A DNA stretch of 26,950 nt from a virus, in IMG/VR virus record IMGVR_UViG_3300022707_001851, positions 1-26,950 of that record; one strand, 5' to 3'. Below are positions 4,922 to 22,414 of the stretch, in pieces. Position numbers and translations under genes: made by a program. Position 1 is the first letter of the stretch; each line of letters opens with the position of its first letter. The notes below the pieces were generated by a model that was not told the DNA's origin, ran no database searches, and saw only the letters and a list, made by a program, of their open reading frames with translations.

Positions 4922-5464
4922 ATGACATGTATAGTTGCAATAAAAGATAAGAGTGGTGTGTATATTGGCGGTGATAGTCAGGCGTCAAGTGGGTTGGATG
5001 CATTTCAGAGAGAAGACCCAAAAGTTTTTAAAAAAGATAATATGATTTTTGGTTTTACAAGATCATATCGCATGGGGCAGCTTATTCAATATGCTATGCC
5101 TGAAATTATTTACAATACAACTGACCCTTTTGGATTTTTGTGCAAAGCTTTTATTCCTGAATTGCTTAAGTGCTTAAAAGACAATAACTATGCAAAAGTA
5201 TCAGACAATAAGGCATCGGGCGGCACTTTCATCATCGGTTTTCAAGGAAGGATTTTTTCTATAGAAGATGATTTTCAAGTAGCCGAGCCATCATATCCAT
5301 ATGATTCTTGCGGTTGCGGCAGACCTTACGCAATTGGCGCTCTTCATCAAATTATTAACATGGATTTGTCGACTAAAGTTAAAATTGGGCTAGCCATTGA
5401 AACAGCAGGAGAGTTTAGCAACGGCGTTGGCGGCCGCGTTGATTACGTTGAATTGAAAAATTAG
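4922..5464 (+). CDS. Proteasome beta/HslV-like Ntn hydrolase
   Basis: This 180-residue protein looks like a 20S-proteasome or HslV-fold N-terminal nucleophile hydrolase. It begins MTCIVAIKDKSGVYIGGDSQ. After removal of Met, Thr2 becomes the nucleophile T1, and Asp18 and Lys34 fall at the classical positions D17 and K33. A Gly-rich CGCGRPYAIGAL segment at about residues 136-147 matches the G-x-G loop and helix of this fold. It has no propeptide, like HslV, and a ribosome binding site AGGGGATAG. A separate U35 prohead protease is encoded at 8694, so this enzyme is not obviously needed for capsid maturation. Substrate and role are unknown; related genes occur in other phages. Confidence 0.8.
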   Translation: MTCIVAIKDKSGVYIGGDSQASSGLDAFQREDPKVFKKDNMIFGFTRSYRMGQLIQYAMPEIIYNTTDPFGFLCKAFIPELLKCLKDNNYAKVSDNKASGGTFIIGFQGRIFSIEDDFQVAEPSYPYDSCGCGRPYAIGALHQIINMDLSTKVKIGLAIETAGEFSNGVGGRVDYVELKN

Positions 5465-6334: not shown

Positions 6335-6808
6335 TTAATCTTTGTCACGCTCTGCTATACGTTCATCTATCCAAGCTTCAACGTCGCTTTCAAGCCATAT
6401 TCTACATTTATGATTTCTCTTGTCTTGTAGCTGTCTCTTGATTGAGCTGGGCATTTTTATTGAGTTGGGGAATACACCGGTACTTATCATATTTATGATT
6501 TGAGATTCGGATACGCTGATGTTACTGATTAAATCAAACGTTAATAGTAGTTGTTCATCATGTGTATCATTCCATTTTTCGATTAAGTCAGGAAGTGGAC
6601 TTGTTCTTTTTATATGATTTTTCAACCATTCTAAAATTTCACTTTCCAACCAAACCGCGGTCCTAGTGTCATTGTTACTTGCAGTCTTGCGTGGCCGCGT
6701 TAATTTAAAAGGCTTGGGAAATTTATTTTTATTTCTAAATACATGAATAGAGGTTTTATCATATTTAGTGAGTCGCATAACTTCAGATATTCTTATTAAT
6801 TTTCTCAT
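6335..6808 (-). CDS. Tandem AlpA-like DNA-binding protein, candidate Aca-type repressor
   Basis: This 157-residue protein appears to hold two AlpA/MerR-type winged-helix units. The first spans about residues 4-67 (LIRISEVMRLTKYDKTSIH ... VWLESEILEWL). The second spans about 92-153, with a diverged helix-turn-helix (VSESQIINMISTGVFP) and the matching end IWLESDVEAWIDERI. The paired WLES[ED]-x3-EW/AW signatures support an internal duplication. It is the second gene of a leftward operon, 24 nt after the AcrIF11-like gene, with AAGGATA as ribosome binding site. A DNA-binding protein directly after an acr gene is the definition of an aca gene, and Aca proteins repress their operon through inverted repeats in the promoter. 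An inverted repeat is present at 7300-7317. Alternatively it is an excisionase-like regulator. Confidence 0.75.
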   Translation of the reverse strand: MRKLIRISEVMRLTKYDKTSIHVFRNKNKFPKPFKLTRPRKTASNNDTRTAVWLESEILEWLKNHIKRTSPLPDLIEKWNDTHDEQLLLTFDLISNISVSESQIINMISTGVFPNSIKMPSSIKRQLQDKRNHKCRIWLESDVEAWIDERIAERDKD

Positions 6809-6832
6809 GATTTTATCCTTGTTTTATTTAAA

Positions 6833-7261
6833 TTATTTCAATCGTACTAAATCGCTTTCCCTTCCCAACATTGGAACGATATAAACTGTGCCTTGCTCGT
6901 CCTCTCCTCTGACAGCTTCGTACCCCATTTTTTTAGCGCATTCCCCTTGTTTTGCCTGTATCCACCAATCATCTTCACCGCTGAGGCCGTGTTCAATCGC
7001 GCTATCACTTCCATCTAGCAAATTTTCGGCTACATCAGTGTCAACATCTAGCGCGCTAGATATATGCGCTATAATTTCATCATCATGCAAATCAGAAGCA
7101 TCTACGATTTTGTCTTCATTAATATCGAGAGAATAAACAGCGCCAACGTTGCCCATGGCATACTCTTCATCTGAAAAGAAAAGACAATCATTAAATAATC
7201 CGTCTTTTGAAATAGCTTTTATTTCAGAAGGGCTTGTATGAATTACTGTATGCATTGTCAT
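6833..7261 (-). CDS. AcrIF11-like anti-CRISPR, putative ADP-ribosyltransferase
   Basis: This 142-residue acidic protein resembles, from memory, the AcrIF11 family, which blocks type I-F CRISPR-Cas by ADP-ribosylating the Cas8f subunit of Cascade. Shared features in order are: HTSPSEIKAI at residues 8-17 followed by G-x-F, LFFSDEEYAM at 27-36, YSLDI at 43-47, an acidic helical middle with VAENLL at 77-82, WWIQAKQG at 99-106, AKKMGYEAV at 109-117, DEQGT at 121-125, and the end MLG-x4-LVR-x-K. Asp121 corresponds to the Asp of the DE[HQ]GT motif implicated in catalysis. The start ATG at 7261 lies 7 nt after GGAG. It is the first gene after promoter A, with an AlpA-like regulator gene behind it. 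Confidence 0.75.
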   Translation of the reverse strand: MTMHTVIHTSPSEIKAISKDGLFNDCLFFSDEEYAMGNVGAVYSLDINEDKIVDASDLHDDEIIAHISSALDVDTDVAENLLDGSDSAIEHGLSGEDDWWIQAKQGECAKKMGYEAVRGEDEQGTVYIVPMLGRESDLVRLK

Positions 7262-7291: not shown

Positions 7292-7320
7292 ATTCTATAA
7301 CAGTGTGTGCATACTATCAA
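7292..7320 (-). promoter_or_regulatory. Moron promoter A with 18-bp inverted-repeat operator
   Basis: Read leftward there is a -35 TTGATA (7315-7320), a 17-bp spacer and a -10 TAGAAT (7292-7297). The spacer and -35 hold an operator-like element, plus strand ACAGTGTGTGCATACTAT at 7300-7317, a slightly degenerate copy of ACAGT-N8-ACTGT. It drives the AcrIF11-like and AlpA-like genes. A protein bound here would cover the polymerase site, so repression is expected. Confidence 0.8.
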
Positions 7321-7467
7321 GCCAATATACAAAAGAAATCAAAGTATTTTGTATATCCGCTCTATCATTGACAATCTCACGCCTTGGATTCAAGGAGCCA
7401 GATTTTAAATCCGCTACATACATAAGCTATACATATAAGCTTAGTCGCTACACACATAAGGCCCATC

Positions 7468-12835: not shown

Positions 12836-13210
12836 TTATTTACCGATAAAGTCTTCTTTTAGAAGTTCTGATTTAATCAGATTACCGTATTCATTAAAAG
12901 TTTGAGAAAAAACACGATAAGGCAGACCTTTTACTAATGGGTTTTGTTTGACCATTTTTGCGCTGAGTGTTTGTAATTCTTGAGTTGTGTTTGCTGTAAC
13001 GGATAATTTTAAATCTTGATTGTCTGTTACTACTTGTAAAATATATTTTGCACCCATGTCGCTATCTGTTTCGCTCATAGTCTGACTCGGTATGCTGTGA
13101 CCGTTCTCTGCTCTTAATCTTAAGCCAAAAGGTTCGGGCTTTACACTTGATGAAAACTTAGCGCATGACTCGACTAGAATAGTGTCAGTGTTTGTTGAGT
13201 ATGTATTCAT
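12836..13210 (-). CDS. Leftward moron protein of cassette B, unknown function
   Basis: This 124-residue protein is alone in the second leftward cassette, inserted between head-completion and neck genes, and is driven by promoter B with ribosome binding site GGAGAA. Residues 9-23 (DTILVESCAKFSSSV) resemble residues 181-195 of the rightward tail protein at 13839 (GTILVESCPRISSSV). The DNA matches at about 35 of 45 positions in the same frame, so part of the gene may have come from that tail gene. The rest is soluble and mixed alpha/beta, without Cys-rich or membrane parts. Because it shares its promoter with the AcrIF11-like operon, it is a candidate anti-defence protein; I do not recognise a known Acr. 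Confidence 0.75.
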   Translation of the reverse strand: MNTYSTNTDTILVESCAKFSSSVKPEPFGLRLRAENGHSIPSQTMSETDSDMGAKYILQVVTDNQDLKLSVTANTTQELQTLSAKMVKQNPLVKGLPYRVFSQTFNEYGNLIKSELLKEDFIGK

Positions 13211-13239: not shown

Positions 13240-13268
13240 ATATTACAACAGTATACACACACTGTCAA
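13240..13268 (-). promoter_or_regulatory. Moron promoter B with 18-bp inverted-repeat operator
   Basis: Read leftward there is TTGACA (13263-13268), a 17-bp spacer and TAATAT (13240-13245). The operator-like sequence read leftward is ACAGTGTGTGTATACTGT (13248-13265). It is identical to the operator of promoter C but in the opposite orientation relative to transcription. Confidence 0.85.
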
Positions 13269-19648: not shown

Positions 19649-19999
19649 TCAATTGATTTCTAGTTTGAATCCTCTGAAATTTATTTTAGCAGTATCAACT
19701 GTTTTTTCTTCGTTGAGAAAAATACAAAAATAGTTGACTTTTTCCCATGCTCCATGTCGGTTCTGCACTTTTAAATTATCGCCAATATAGCCGGTCATAT
19801 GTTCGTTTTGTTCAAGAACATCAAACTTAGAATCAAACAAGCCATCAGTCCATTCATATTCAAATGGTCTAAGATCTTCTATTGCAGTTTTACATTTATT
19901 AGTTGGCGAATTTTTGTAGATTAAATTAGCGGCTACAATAATTGCAATACAAATAAAAACTGCTAATAACACAATAATTTTTAATTTAAAATTTTTCAT
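19649..19999 (-). CDS. Leftward accessory protein with N-terminal membrane anchor
   Basis: This 116-residue protein starts MKNFKLKIIVLLAVFICIAII, a basic start followed by one hydrophobic helix at about residues 8-27, so it is probably anchored in the inner membrane with the rest in the periplasm. The soluble part has two Cys (CKTAIEDL and NYFCIFL) that could form a disulfide. It is the last gene of the leftward island. Small membrane-anchored periplasmic phage proteins can block superinfection at the DNA entry step; that is a possibility only. Confidence 0.7.
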   Translation of the reverse strand: MKNFKLKIIVLLAVFICIAIIVAANLIYKNSPTNKCKTAIEDLRPFEYEWTDGLFDSKFDVLEQNEHMTGYIGDNLKVQNRHGAWEKVNYFCIFLNEEKTVDTAKINFRGFKLEIN

Positions 20000-20053
20000 T
20001 GTTTTTCCTTGTAGTTTAGTTAAAGTTATTCGAGCGTTTCGGTTGGTTTCGGT

Positions 20054-20350
20054 TCAATCGAGTATTTTGTGGTAAATCATTTCGTTATTTTTGGTGTTAA
20101 TGATTCTTAATAGATATCTTTCGTATTTGCAGCTCCATGATGAAATCGCCAATCGTACAAGAGATTCAAATGATTCTGTCACTATGCGACTGATTGTTTC
20201 TTGGTCATGAATCAATTGGTCGGTTTGCAAGTAAGTGTCGTCGTCATTGAAATACAACGTAGGCGTACCAAGCATTTTAATTTTCGGCGGGTTGTGACTG
20301 TGAGTTTCAATTTCAATTTGGTCTAGTTTTATTATGTATTGGTCTTCCAT
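20054..20350 (-). CDS. Leftward accessory protein, unknown
   Basis: This 98-residue soluble acidic protein has ribosome binding site AGGA. It has a beta-rich first half (YIIKLDQIEIETHSHNPP, LGTPTLYFNDDDTYLQ) and a helical second half (ETISRIVTESFESLVRLAISS), ending in a strand pair. No known motif is visible. It is part of the closely spaced leftward island downstream of promoter C. Confidence 0.7.
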   Translation of the reverse strand: MEDQYIIKLDQIEIETHSHNPPKIKMLGTPTLYFNDDDTYLQTDQLIHDQETISRIVTESFESLVRLAISSWSCKYERYLLRIINTKNNEMIYHKILD

Positions 20351-20375
20351 GATTGTTGTCCTGGTTGATTGCGGG

Positions 20376-20696
20376 TTATTTTTCTATCCAAAAATGATAG
20401 GTATAGCTTCCGCAAGGAGGGCGGTAGTCTGTTAATTCTTTTATAACAGCATAGGGCGCGTCAGAATCACGCTCTATCATATCGTTGTCATATAAATACT
20501 TGAGCAATATTTTTTTGTAGTCTGGGTATTGCCGCCAATCAATTTTTATTGCGCCTATGGGCGAGTTAGCCGCCTTAACCGAAAGCTTTAAGTTTTTATA
20601 GATGTATATTTGTCCGTGCTTATATCTGGCGCTAGACGGCTTACAATCAATTTCCTTTTCATCAATTATGATTTTCGGGTTTTCTATTTTTGGCAT
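20376..20696 (-). CDS. Leftward accessory protein, unknown
   Basis: This 106-residue protein starts at the ATG at 20696, preceded by AAGGATAG. A start 12 codons further upstream is possible but overlaps the previous small gene and lacks a good ribosome binding site. The sequence is basic and mixed (IIIDEKEIDCKPSSARYKHGQIYIYKNLKLSVKAA), with a helical stretch around YPDYKKILLKYLYDNDMIE and a beta end. The family is unknown. The size and context fit anti-defence or host-modulating proteins. Confidence 0.68.
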   Translation of the reverse strand: MPKIENPKIIIDEKEIDCKPSSARYKHGQIYIYKNLKLSVKAANSPIGAIKIDWRQYPDYKKILLKYLYDNDMIERDSDAPYAVIKELTDYRPPCGSYTYHFWIEK

Positions 20697-20715
20697 AGTT
20701 CTATCCTTGGTTGAT

Positions 20716-20853
20716 TTACATGACTCTAACAATAAGAAAGATTGCTAGATTGATAAATGTACCTATAACGACTCCGATTATGAGTCCGGTAAAGAAATCC
20801 GTCTCGGTTACTAGCTTACAATGTGCGCATTTACTGTCCATTTTTATTTCCAT
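20716..20853 (-). CDS. 45-residue CxxC membrane micro-protein
   Basis: This leftward open frame sits in the gap between two accessory genes. The product has a short N-terminal part with one CAHC pair (CxxC), and then a single hydrophobic helix over about residues 20-43 (FFTGLIIGVVIGTFINLAIF), ending in RVM. A second ATG at 20841 with GGA upstream would give 41 residues. The gap would otherwise be a 174-nt hole in a compact operon, which supports a real gene. The rightward frame over the same bases (20711-20959) is treated as a shadow. Confidence 0.55.
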   Translation of the reverse strand: MEIKMDSKCAHCKLVTETDFFTGLIIGVVIGTFINLAIFLIVRVM

Positions 20854-20870
20854 TATCCCAGTTGATGAAG

Positions 20871-21071
20871 TTAAATTCTTGAAAAGTGAGTTATATATGC
20901 ACCAGAAAAGTTTATGTCGTGCTTATGCGTGGATTCAGCAAGAGCCACTGCGCCTTTAAATGCATGATTAGCGTTTGGGTAAAAAGACTTTAATGACACT
21001 ATGCCAGAGACACGGCATTTATCGCTATCTATGCCATACTCATATCTATAAAAATACTCTCGCTTTATCAT
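20871..21071 (-). CDS. Leftward accessory protein, unknown
   Basis: This 66-residue protein starts in an ATGA overlap with the gene upstream of it in the operon. It begins with an aromatic and basic stretch (MIKREYFYRYEYGID), followed by KCRVSGIVSLKSFYPNANHAFKGAVALAES. It is soluble and probably one small alpha/beta unit. No family is recognised; the coupling supports expression. Confidence 0.68.
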   Translation of the reverse strand: MIKREYFYRYEYGIDSDKCRVSGIVSLKSFYPNANHAFKGAVALAESTHKHDINFSGAYITHFSRI

Positions 21072-21454
21072 GATGGTTGCTCCTGTTGTGCGTCTAAAAG
21101 CTCTTGGCAGTCTTGAGCGGTGAATGTTTTGCGTAACAATAAAGGCAGCACTAAATCAGTACCGAAGTGTAGCGCTTCACTGACGCAGCCAGAGACATGA
21201 CACCGCAATCTGTGATTGCTGCAATAGATTGAGTCCACATTATTTGGGTGTAGTTTAAAGTTTTGCGCTTTGCTAAAATCGACAGAAAAATTACCCTCGA
21301 TATCACCCTCAATTAAATTGTATTCACATTCAACCGATTCACCGATAATTTTTTGAGCTTTAGCTTTGATAAATGTAAGCTTCATATCACTACCCAGCTT
21401 TTCTTTCAGCGCTTGCAGCTTATCGTTAAACTTTTGTATGGTTTCGGGTTTCAT
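21068..21454 (-). CDS. Leftward accessory protein with four Cys, unknown
   Basis: This 128-residue protein is coupled on both sides by ATGA overlaps. The N-terminal helix (ETIQKFNDKLQALKEKLG) is followed by a beta region (LTFIKAKAQKIIGESVECEYNLIEGDIEGNF). A Cys-rich part (YCSNHRLRCHVSGCV, with a further Cys at about residue 43) could bind metal. The end is helical (KTFTAQDCQELLDAQQ). The function is unknown. Confidence 0.7.
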   Translation of the reverse strand: MKPETIQKFNDKLQALKEKLGSDMKLTFIKAKAQKIIGESVECEYNLIEGDIEGNFSVDFSKAQNFKLHPNNVDSIYCSNHRLRCHVSGCVSEALHFGTDLVLPLLLRKTFTAQDCQELLDAQQEQPS

Positions 21455-21771
21455 TGGTTAGCCTTGGTCAAGTCGATAGTTTTTGAGTAAACCTCGTTGG
21501 ATTCAGTGCATTCCCATTGTTCATCGAGATATGTATTTTCCGCGATTGTTATTGTTAGTTGTTGGTCATCTGGAAATTCTGCTTTCAGTCTGGGTAAGAT
21601 AAAGTCTTTTATTATGTCTAGTGCATCTTGTTTGGTATAGAAATACTCTGGGTCTTCTCGGCCCATCGTATCAATGAATTTATTTTCGATTTTACACCAT
21701 TGATAAAATTCGTATTCATTACATCCACTAAAATCAATCTCGTTGCTTATTTCTATTGAGTATTTTTTCAT
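21451..21771 (-). CDS. Leftward accessory protein, acidic, unknown
   Basis: This 106-residue acidic protein has ribosome binding site AGGAAAG. It starts with a beta strand (KKYSIEISNEIDFSG), then an aromatic helical region (YEFYQWCKIENKFIDTMG), a helix around TKQDALDIIKDFILPRLK, and closing strands. Small acidic proteins of this kind are frequent among DNA mimics and inhibitors of host defence, but composition alone is weak evidence. It follows the 85-residue gene behind promoter C. Confidence 0.7.
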   Translation of the reverse strand: MKKYSIEISNEIDFSGCNEYEFYQWCKIENKFIDTMGREDPEYFYTKQDALDIIKDFILPRLKAEFPDDQQLTITIAENTYLDEQWECTESNEVYSKTIDLTKANQ

Positions 21772-21805
21772 GATGCTTTCCTGGTTGGGTCGTTGACTGA
21801 TGCGT

Positions 21806-22063
21806 TTATTTTATGCTCTCAACAAATGCGCGGGCTTGAGAATAAAGCGGGTGATTTTTAAAAAGGCAAACTTTCCTTTTCCCGTTGAGACCAAGAAATG
21901 ATAGTGCCTTGATGTTATTTTTGAATATTTTTTGTAAATTATTGCCAGAATTCTTTGATAGTATAGTTACACATTTTCGCGTATCAATTCCGTTATCTAG
22001 CACATAAGAAACATTTACTTTTTCTTTGCCGTTTGTCACGTTGAACTTGTTAAATTTAATCAT
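21806..22063 (-). CDS. First gene of cassette C, small basic accessory protein
   Basis: This 85-residue protein starts at the ATG at 22063, placed by the shared leader with GGAGAA. The longer in-frame start further upstream lies inside the leader and is rejected. The sequence is a beta-rich half (FNKFNVTNGKEKVNVSYVLD, RKCVTILSK), a helix, and a basic end with KNHPLYSQARAFVESIK. The family name is unknown to me. Its direct control by the same promoter/operator as the AcrIF11-like gene makes it the best anti-defence candidate of the island. Confidence 0.72.
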   Translation of the reverse strand: MIKFNKFNVTNGKEKVNVSYVLDNGIDTRKCVTILSKNSGNNLQKIFKNNIKALSFLGLNGKRKVCLFKNHPLYSQARAFVESIK

Positions 22064-22069
22064 TTTGCA

Positions 22070-22086
22070 TTCTCCGTTTCGTTGAT
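22070..22086 (-). promoter_or_regulatory. Conserved leader and ribosome binding site of cassette C
   Basis: Read leftward it is ATCAACGAAACGGAGAA, identical to cassettes A and B. The shared leader shows that promoter and translation signal travel together. Confidence 0.75.
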
Positions 22087-22094
22087 GTTGACCC

Positions 22095-22123
22095 ATATTA
22101 CAACAGTGTGTGTATACTGTCAA
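22095..22123 (-). promoter_or_regulatory. Moron promoter C with 18-bp inverted-repeat operator
   Basis: Read leftward there is TTGACA (22118-22123), a 17-bp spacer and TAATAT (22095-22100). The plus-strand operator sequence is ACAGTGTGTGTATACTGT (22103-22120), the reverse complement of which lies at the same place in promoter B. It should drive the eight genes from 22063 down to 19649. Confidence 0.85.
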
Positions 22124-22131
22124 GAGAAATA

Positions 22132-22145
22132 TGAAATAAATCTAA
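22132..22145. repeat. Left copy of 14-bp direct repeat bounding cassette D
   Basis: TGAAATAAATCTAA occurs here and again at 22426-22439, 294 bp away, in each case just upstream of a moron promoter. It suggests duplication or recombination at the cassette edge. Confidence 0.6.
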
Positions 22146-22345
22146 TCTTTTTCATCTTTTTTATCTTTTTTTCTTTCGCCTTCATACACATAGTAGTTGG
22201 GAAATCTGCTTGTATTTAAGCCTCTGATAAACTGGCTAACAACTTTATTGTCGTCGACGTGATGATAGTGCCCATGACGAATAACTTGCATTTCTCTTAG
22301 TCGGGTAGCGCGGTCCTGGCCCCGTTGTTTGACTGTTTTAGCCAT
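22142..22345 (-). CDS. Small basic protein of cassette D
   Basis: This 67-residue very basic protein starts at ATG 22345, 8-10 nt after AAGGA. An upstream in-frame ATG lies inside promoter D and is rejected. It starts with AKTVKQRGQDRATRLREMQVIRHGHYHHVDDNKV and ends with a charged Lys/Asp/Glu tail. The His-rich HGHYHH segment could bind metal or nucleic acid. It is the only gene between promoters D and C. Its function is unknown; a nucleic acid-binding role is plausible from charge alone. Confidence 0.65.
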   Translation of the reverse strand: MAKTVKQRGQDRATRLREMQVIRHGHYHHVDDNKVVSQFIRGLNTSRFPNYYVYEGERKKDKKDEKD

Positions 22346-22385: not shown

Positions 22386-22414
22386 ATTGTATATAAGTAT
22401 GTACACACTGTCAA
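22386..22414 (-). promoter_or_regulatory. Moron promoter D with operator variant
   Basis: Read leftward there is TTGACA (22409-22414), a 17-bp spacer and TACAAT (22386-22391). The operator read leftward is ACAGTGTGTACATACTTA (22394-22411), the most diverged of the four. Its leader does not carry the 17-nt block shared by A, B and C. Confidence 0.75.

Follow-up and report, generated by a model that had tools for sequence, protein, structure and literature searches.

The question raised by this locus is whether a 157-aa protein with two AlpA-like units, encoded directly behind an AcrIF11-family gene of a phage, is a repressor of the Aca type. As described in the available text of PMC9410906, acr-associated Aca proteins are mostly 60-65 aa long with a single HTH, the longer ones being relatives of Aca2 and AcrIIA1 only (means 136 and 149 aa). 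The acr-aca promoters of ten families carry an inverted repeat in the core promoter, and those Aca proteins that were tested repress their own promoters (PMC9410906). We therefore consider in turn the protein, the acr gene that it accompanies, the candidate operators and the other regulators that might use them.

Sequence and gene layout

The window, that is, the whole stretch of DNA analysed here, is IMG/VR record IMGVR_UViG_3300022707_001851, positions 1 to 26,950 (26,950 bases). It is a fragment holding late genes of a tailed phage whose baseplate parts are Mu-like. Its plus strand carries terminase, portal, capsid, connector, tape-measure-like and baseplate genes, a series interrupted by minus-strand genes at 6335-7261, 12836-13210 and 19649-22345 (Table 1). 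The early region is absent from this 27-kb fragment, and no early genes were found among the window ORFs scanned. The phage head module also holds an HslV/proteasome-family peptidase gene (4922-5464, plus strand; phrog_1040, 2.9e-22; Pfam Proteasome just under cut-off).

Table 1. Genes and predicted regulatory sites discussed in the text (operators in gene direction for B, C and D)
Feature	Position	Strand	Basis or context
Tandem AlpA-like protein, 157 aa, proposed Aca-type repressor	6335..6808	minus	Pfam, four-protein profile, half-vs-half alignment, fold model
AlpA units of that protein	unit 1, ~ residues 2-66; linker, 67-84; unit 2, ~ residues 85-157
AcrIF11-family anti-CRISPR, predicted ADP-ribosyltransferase, 142 aa	6833..7261	minus	NCBIfam NF052490, PDB 8dwq, alignment
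acrIF11-alpA core promoter, predicted	7292..7320	minus	promoter prediction
Operator A, ATAGTATGCACACACTGT, predicted	7300..7317	minus	in 17-bp spacer between -35 TTGATA and -10 TAGAAT; overlaps end of -35 box
124-aa protein, no assigned family	12836..13210	minus	under operator C
Operator C, ACAGTGTGTGTATACTGT, predicted	13248..13265	minus	between -35 TTGACA and -10 TAATAT; exact reverse complement of B
Eight small ORFs (85, 106, 128, 66, 45, 106, 98, 116 aa)	19649..22063	minus	under operator B
Operator B, ACAGTATACACACACTGT, predicted	22103..22120	minus	between -35 TTGACA and -10 TAATAT
67-aa basic protein, no assigned family	22142..22345	minus	under operator D
Operator D, ACAGTGTGTACATACTTA, predicted	22394..22411	minus	between -35 TTGACA and -10 TACAAT

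The tandem AlpA protein

Residues 3-62 of the 157-aa protein pass the curated Pfam cut-off for Phage_AlpA (6e-8; 32.9 bits vs 21). Since unit 2 alone scores below that cut-off (14.8 bits, E 0.026), Pfam by itself shows one unit only. Both units are found (i-E 4.5e-6 and 2.4e-8) by an AlpA profile made, without the window protein, from four single, unrelated AlpA proteins encoded by other phages and plasmids, and comparison of each half with the AlpA profile gave 98.0% for the C half and 96.9% for the N half. The halves also resemble each other, with a Smith-Waterman score of 61 against 23.6 +/- 4.5 for shuffled sequences (none of 5000 shuffles scored as high). WLES is present twice, at residues 53-56 and 138-141, and in both units the wing between the KL/KM and WLES motifs is 10-12 residues longer than in most single AlpA proteins. 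The likeness of the halves, together with the lengthened wing common to both, points to an internal duplication of the AlpA unit. The Phage_AlpA match and the two units supply the HTH-type DNA-binding domain that is looked for in an Aca.

A fold model was built from an alignment of 36 rows, 35 of them viral AlpA rows. Its C half is confident (block pLDDT 73-97 from residue 81); its N half has block pLDDT 51-73 over residues 1-70 and is not established by structure, because the other alignment rows all cover the C half alone. The modelled C half superposes on the GIsul2 excisionase 8c3t (Z 8.4, 57 residues, 1.4 A), with MerR-type proteins among the lower-ranking overlays. A Foldseek search of the PDB found nothing at E <= 0.001, the best match being at 0.064. 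A single-sequence fold (pLDDT 35) was discarded, and armadillo-repeat and other PDB sequence matches of the protein were taken as chance. The profile, the Smith-Waterman comparison and the C-half fold together bear out the preliminary description of this DNA, which had seen two AlpA-like units with matching WLES signatures in one chain: as read from its sequence, the ORF encodes two AlpA-type winged-helix units.

AcrIF11 and its partners

The neighbouring 142-aa protein matches AcrIF11 at the NCBIfam equivalog level (NF052490, 124.1 bits vs a cut-off of 50) and PDB 8dwq at 7.8e-16, and an alignment with 11 relatives shows that DEQGT is kept. D146 and E147, the catalytic residues proposed for AcrIF11Pae2 in the available text of PMC12421852, would correspond to the D and E of this motif. 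The acrIF11 gene lies 24 bp upstream of alpA on the same strand, and by this arrangement the two form one operon, so that the DNA-binding gene shares its operon with an acr gene as expected of an aca.

We compared the pair with 33 other AcrIF11 loci, in 29 of which the downstream gene was scanned. The protein itself agrees with AcrIF11 in family match and DEQGT motif; its partner is unlike those elsewhere, which are HTH_3, YdaS-like or other small proteins (HTH_3 in 8/29, YdaS in 4/29, the rest various). The 22 families matched by these 29 downstream genes do not include Phage_AlpA. A significant inverted repeat occupies the promoter spacer at 9 of the 26 other acrIF11 loci with a predicted promoter. 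GTGAG-type palindromes are common to loci L008, L103, L104 and L106, whose partner proteins are related (alignment A5); that of L106 is not significant alone (41/300 shuffles). Since the downstream families vary and related partners go with related palindromes, it seems that AcrIF11 repeatedly swaps its DNA-binding partner, the operator apparently changing too, and that the window pair is a further case.

Two observations on these loci are recorded here. Near-perfect palindromes fill the -35/-10 spacer of the acrIF11 promoters of L108, L110 and L116 (0/300 shuffles each), and L116 has no small gene directly behind acr. In another virus contig (L012:3735-6216) the AcrIF11 gene runs on the plus strand and precedes a terminase, the large subunit of which shares 46% identity with that of the window; AcrIF11 therefore occupies different places in related phages.

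A recurring site in four promoters

When up to 3 mismatches are allowed, operator A has exactly four copies in the 26,950 bases, against 0.01 expected and a maximum of 1 across 100 shuffles. In a matrix scan of the window these copies reach 24.6-28.6, and the best score anywhere else, leaving aside the same copies reversed, is 8.7. All four belong to minus-strand operons that interrupt the plus-strand head and tail genes, each lying in the spacer that separates -35 from -10, and three of the four promoters have the leader CAACGAAACGGAGAA in common. The promoters of operators B and C are nearly identical in -35, -10 and leader, with the 18-bp core flipped between them; this fits a blocking site, since the orientation of such a site does not matter. 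The plus-strand reading of 7300-7317 is ACAGT-GTGTGCAT-ACTAT. The core GTGTGTAT, which the preliminary description had assigned to that position, belongs instead to the copies at 13248-13265 and 22103-22120.

The site had also been described as an 18-bp inverted-repeat operator whose asymmetric core would fit two slightly different recognition helices. Its fourfold recurrence in promoters upholds the operator, and it is on this recurrence, not on palindromy, that we take the site to be real. The inverted repeat fares less well: the site is symmetric at 6/9 pairs only, and no single copy is more palindromic than shuffled sequence, in contrast to the strongest spacer repeats found at other AcrIF11 operons. 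Where Aca core promoters carry an inverted repeat, this locus has a site of fourfold recurrence, no copy of which is significantly palindromic alone. As to the asymmetry, each of the four operators does consist of one AGTAT half and one AGTGT half, but random pairing of four plus four half-sites yields all-heterotypic sets in 24/105 cases (p = 0.23), and the four may have arisen by copying from each other. Heterotypic half-sites are therefore only a hint, and their use as proof of a heterospecific reader was dropped.

An imperfect 15-bp inverted repeat (7320-7361; 87% complementary, 12-nt loop) lies just past operator A on the side of the plus-strand genes. A search of IMG/VR for the exact operator plus -35 pattern returned three loci, in or beside unrelated ORFs and without AlpA, which were taken as chance.

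Downstream of operators B, C and D, family matches are scarce. The 124-aa protein matches no family above threshold (closest DUF3747, E 0.022) and no phage relative was found for it; searches with the 67-aa protein found neither family nor relative. The eight ORFs under operator B, which likely form one operon, gave one weak match, of the 116-aa ORF to phrog_13160 (1.4e-4), the 45-aa ORF lying outside the scan. Consecutive and almost without family matches, they make 19649-22063 (minus strand) a candidate accessory or anti-defence island.

Candidate regulators

Because the sites are alike and the operons contain no other recognisable regulator, we infer one protein for the four promoters. No DNA-binding family was found among the other operator-controlled ORFs scanned with Pfam, PHROGs and NCBIfam, the nearest being a sub-cut-off RNA-recognition match.

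The main rival to the AlpA protein in this role is the phage's own lysogeny or early repressor, with its gene outside the fragment. The four operators would then be its sites, the AlpA protein a passenger or a protein with some other target, and the accessory genes morons expressed or silenced in the lysogen. It ranks first because the fragment lacks the early region, leaving other regulators out of view, and a master repressor would be expected to use one operator at several scattered promoters, as at the four here. Yet one operator lies in the AlpA gene's own promoter, an arrangement known for Aca families (PMC9410906), and among the 37 distinct window ORFs scanned the tandem AlpA ORF alone matches an HTH repressor family above the Pfam cut-off. 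We consider an off-fragment repressor unlikely.

The relatives of the AlpA units bear on a second rival, according to which the tandem protein is an excisionase (recombination directionality factor) or an activator that stands behind acrIF11 by chance. The AlpA profile matches 73 ORFs among 20,799 open stretches in 188 sequences; among the 71 loci with a match, two AlpA domains in one ORF occur in the window only (plus L001, its excerpt). IMG/VR yielded no close relatives of the tandem protein, and neither the phages and plasmids scanned nor 369 class and 394 order genomes (taxa of a Pseudoalteromonas genome) yielded a tandem relative, all matches being to one unit. Each window unit has the FP...K/L...W.ES...W pattern of the Phage_AlpA/excisionase family PF05930, whose members in the examined loci are single-unit, unlike the window protein with its two units and wings ~10-12 residues longer than most. 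The preliminary description had asked whether homologues repeatedly follow acr genes; the viruses, plasmids and genomes scanned yielded no tandem homologue to which this could apply, nor did any other locus among the 188 stretches have AcrIF11 and AlpA together. The acrIF11-alpA pairing thus recurs at none of the homologous loci, and an argument from guilt by repetition is not available.

Homologues occurring mainly as excisionases beside integrases, which by the same description would refute a new Aca type, are found in part, among distant single-AlpA relatives in phages. These are often annotated as excisionase and adjoin integrases, as in Rhodobacter phage RcPescado, Burkholderia phage Carl1 and Rhizobium phage RHph_X2_30, where an integrase lies next to the gene or not far off, but they align with one unit only, at 26-33% identity. 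The best PHROG matches of the tandem protein itself are named excisionase and transcriptional regulator, and its best fold match is a transposon excisionase. Against an excisionase, the Pfam scan of 37 distinct window ORFs revealed no integrase (the window being part of the phage), and alpA sits inside the head module of late genes. Against an activator, a position between -35 and -10 is what would be expected of a blocker, and the 17-bp spacer here is shorter than the 19-20 bp that MerR-type activators require. An excisionase or activator is accordingly quite improbable.

It is very improbable that the 67-aa protein under operator D is the true regulator in place of the AlpA protein: it is small, basic and under an operator copy, and its first 41 residues align loosely with 60-65-aa AcrIF11 partners, but it lacks any family or relative and was rejected as kin to those partners at an hhalign probability of 4.9%.

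Proposed regulation

The best explanation is that the 157-aa protein acts as an Aca-type autorepressor of the acrIF11-alpA operon, to which we give a probability of about 0.7. It would probably also control the three further operons of small genes, and the phage accessory genes under its control may perhaps be anti-defence genes. On infection, the strong promoters (-35 TTGACA or TTGATA, 17-bp spacer) would fire and release a burst of AcrIF11 and accessory proteins, the AcrIF11 product being predicted to ADP-ribosylate type I-F Cascade. With rising levels of the AlpA protein, each of its units would take hold of one 9-bp half of the 18-bp operator between -35 and -10. Occupation would shut off the acrIF11-alpA operon and, through the near-identical operators, the three other small accessory-gene operons embedded among the late genes.

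The operator could be covered by one chain alone or by two chains each giving one unit. In RdfS each winged-helix unit covers about 10 bp (PMC11963761, available text), so that a two-unit chain could by analogy span the 18-bp site; RdfS-type proteins bind head to tail, whereas the half-sites of the window are inverted, and a flexible linker or a two-chain complex would therefore be needed. That the tandem protein binds as a monomer with two specificities is a tentative possibility, with the odds against it. More doubtful still is the full combination, in which a single-chain AlpA reader sits as a monomer on a quasi-palindromic operator and controls four anti-defence operons as one regulon extending across the phage.

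Like Aca1-Aca12, the window protein is encoded by a DNA-binding gene directly behind acr, with an operator in the core promoter of the operon (PMC9410906, available text); unlike them it has two AlpA units, 157 aa and three extra candidate target promoters. The AlpA fold is not named among Aca folds in the Aca literature covered here, and the Pfam names for Acas in the available text on AcaFinder are HTH families, KORA, DUF1870 and YdaS_antitoxin, without Phage_AlpA. No report of an AlpA-type Aca was found among the titles and abstract openings covered, which does not prove absence. AlpA of Pseudomonas aeruginosa shares the name and also binds between -35 and -10; it is a Q-like antiterminator of different fold, outside the CP4-57 AlpA family (PMC9371919, available text). 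The suggestion of a new Aca type gains from a tandem AlpA protein that shares its operon with a bona fide AcrIF11 gene and from the operator lying in their core promoter; it loses from the frequency of excisionases among single-AlpA relatives and from the pairing being unrepeated in 188 stretches.

Implications

Genes for anti-CRISPRs are often discovered by following aca genes. If true, a tandem AlpA Aca adds both a fold and an architecture to the Aca repertoire, and one that AcaFinder would miss, because its stated filter takes HTH proteins under 150 aa. Through the repeated operator the acr operon is tied to three more, whose genes have almost no family matches, and this frames the question of whether one Aca can run a dispersed regulon. 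It also makes ten uncharacterised genes concrete anti-defence candidates. Should the reading as an anti-defence regulon be true, the operator would pick out new anti-defence genes, namely those of the 124-aa, 67-aa and eight-ORF operons.
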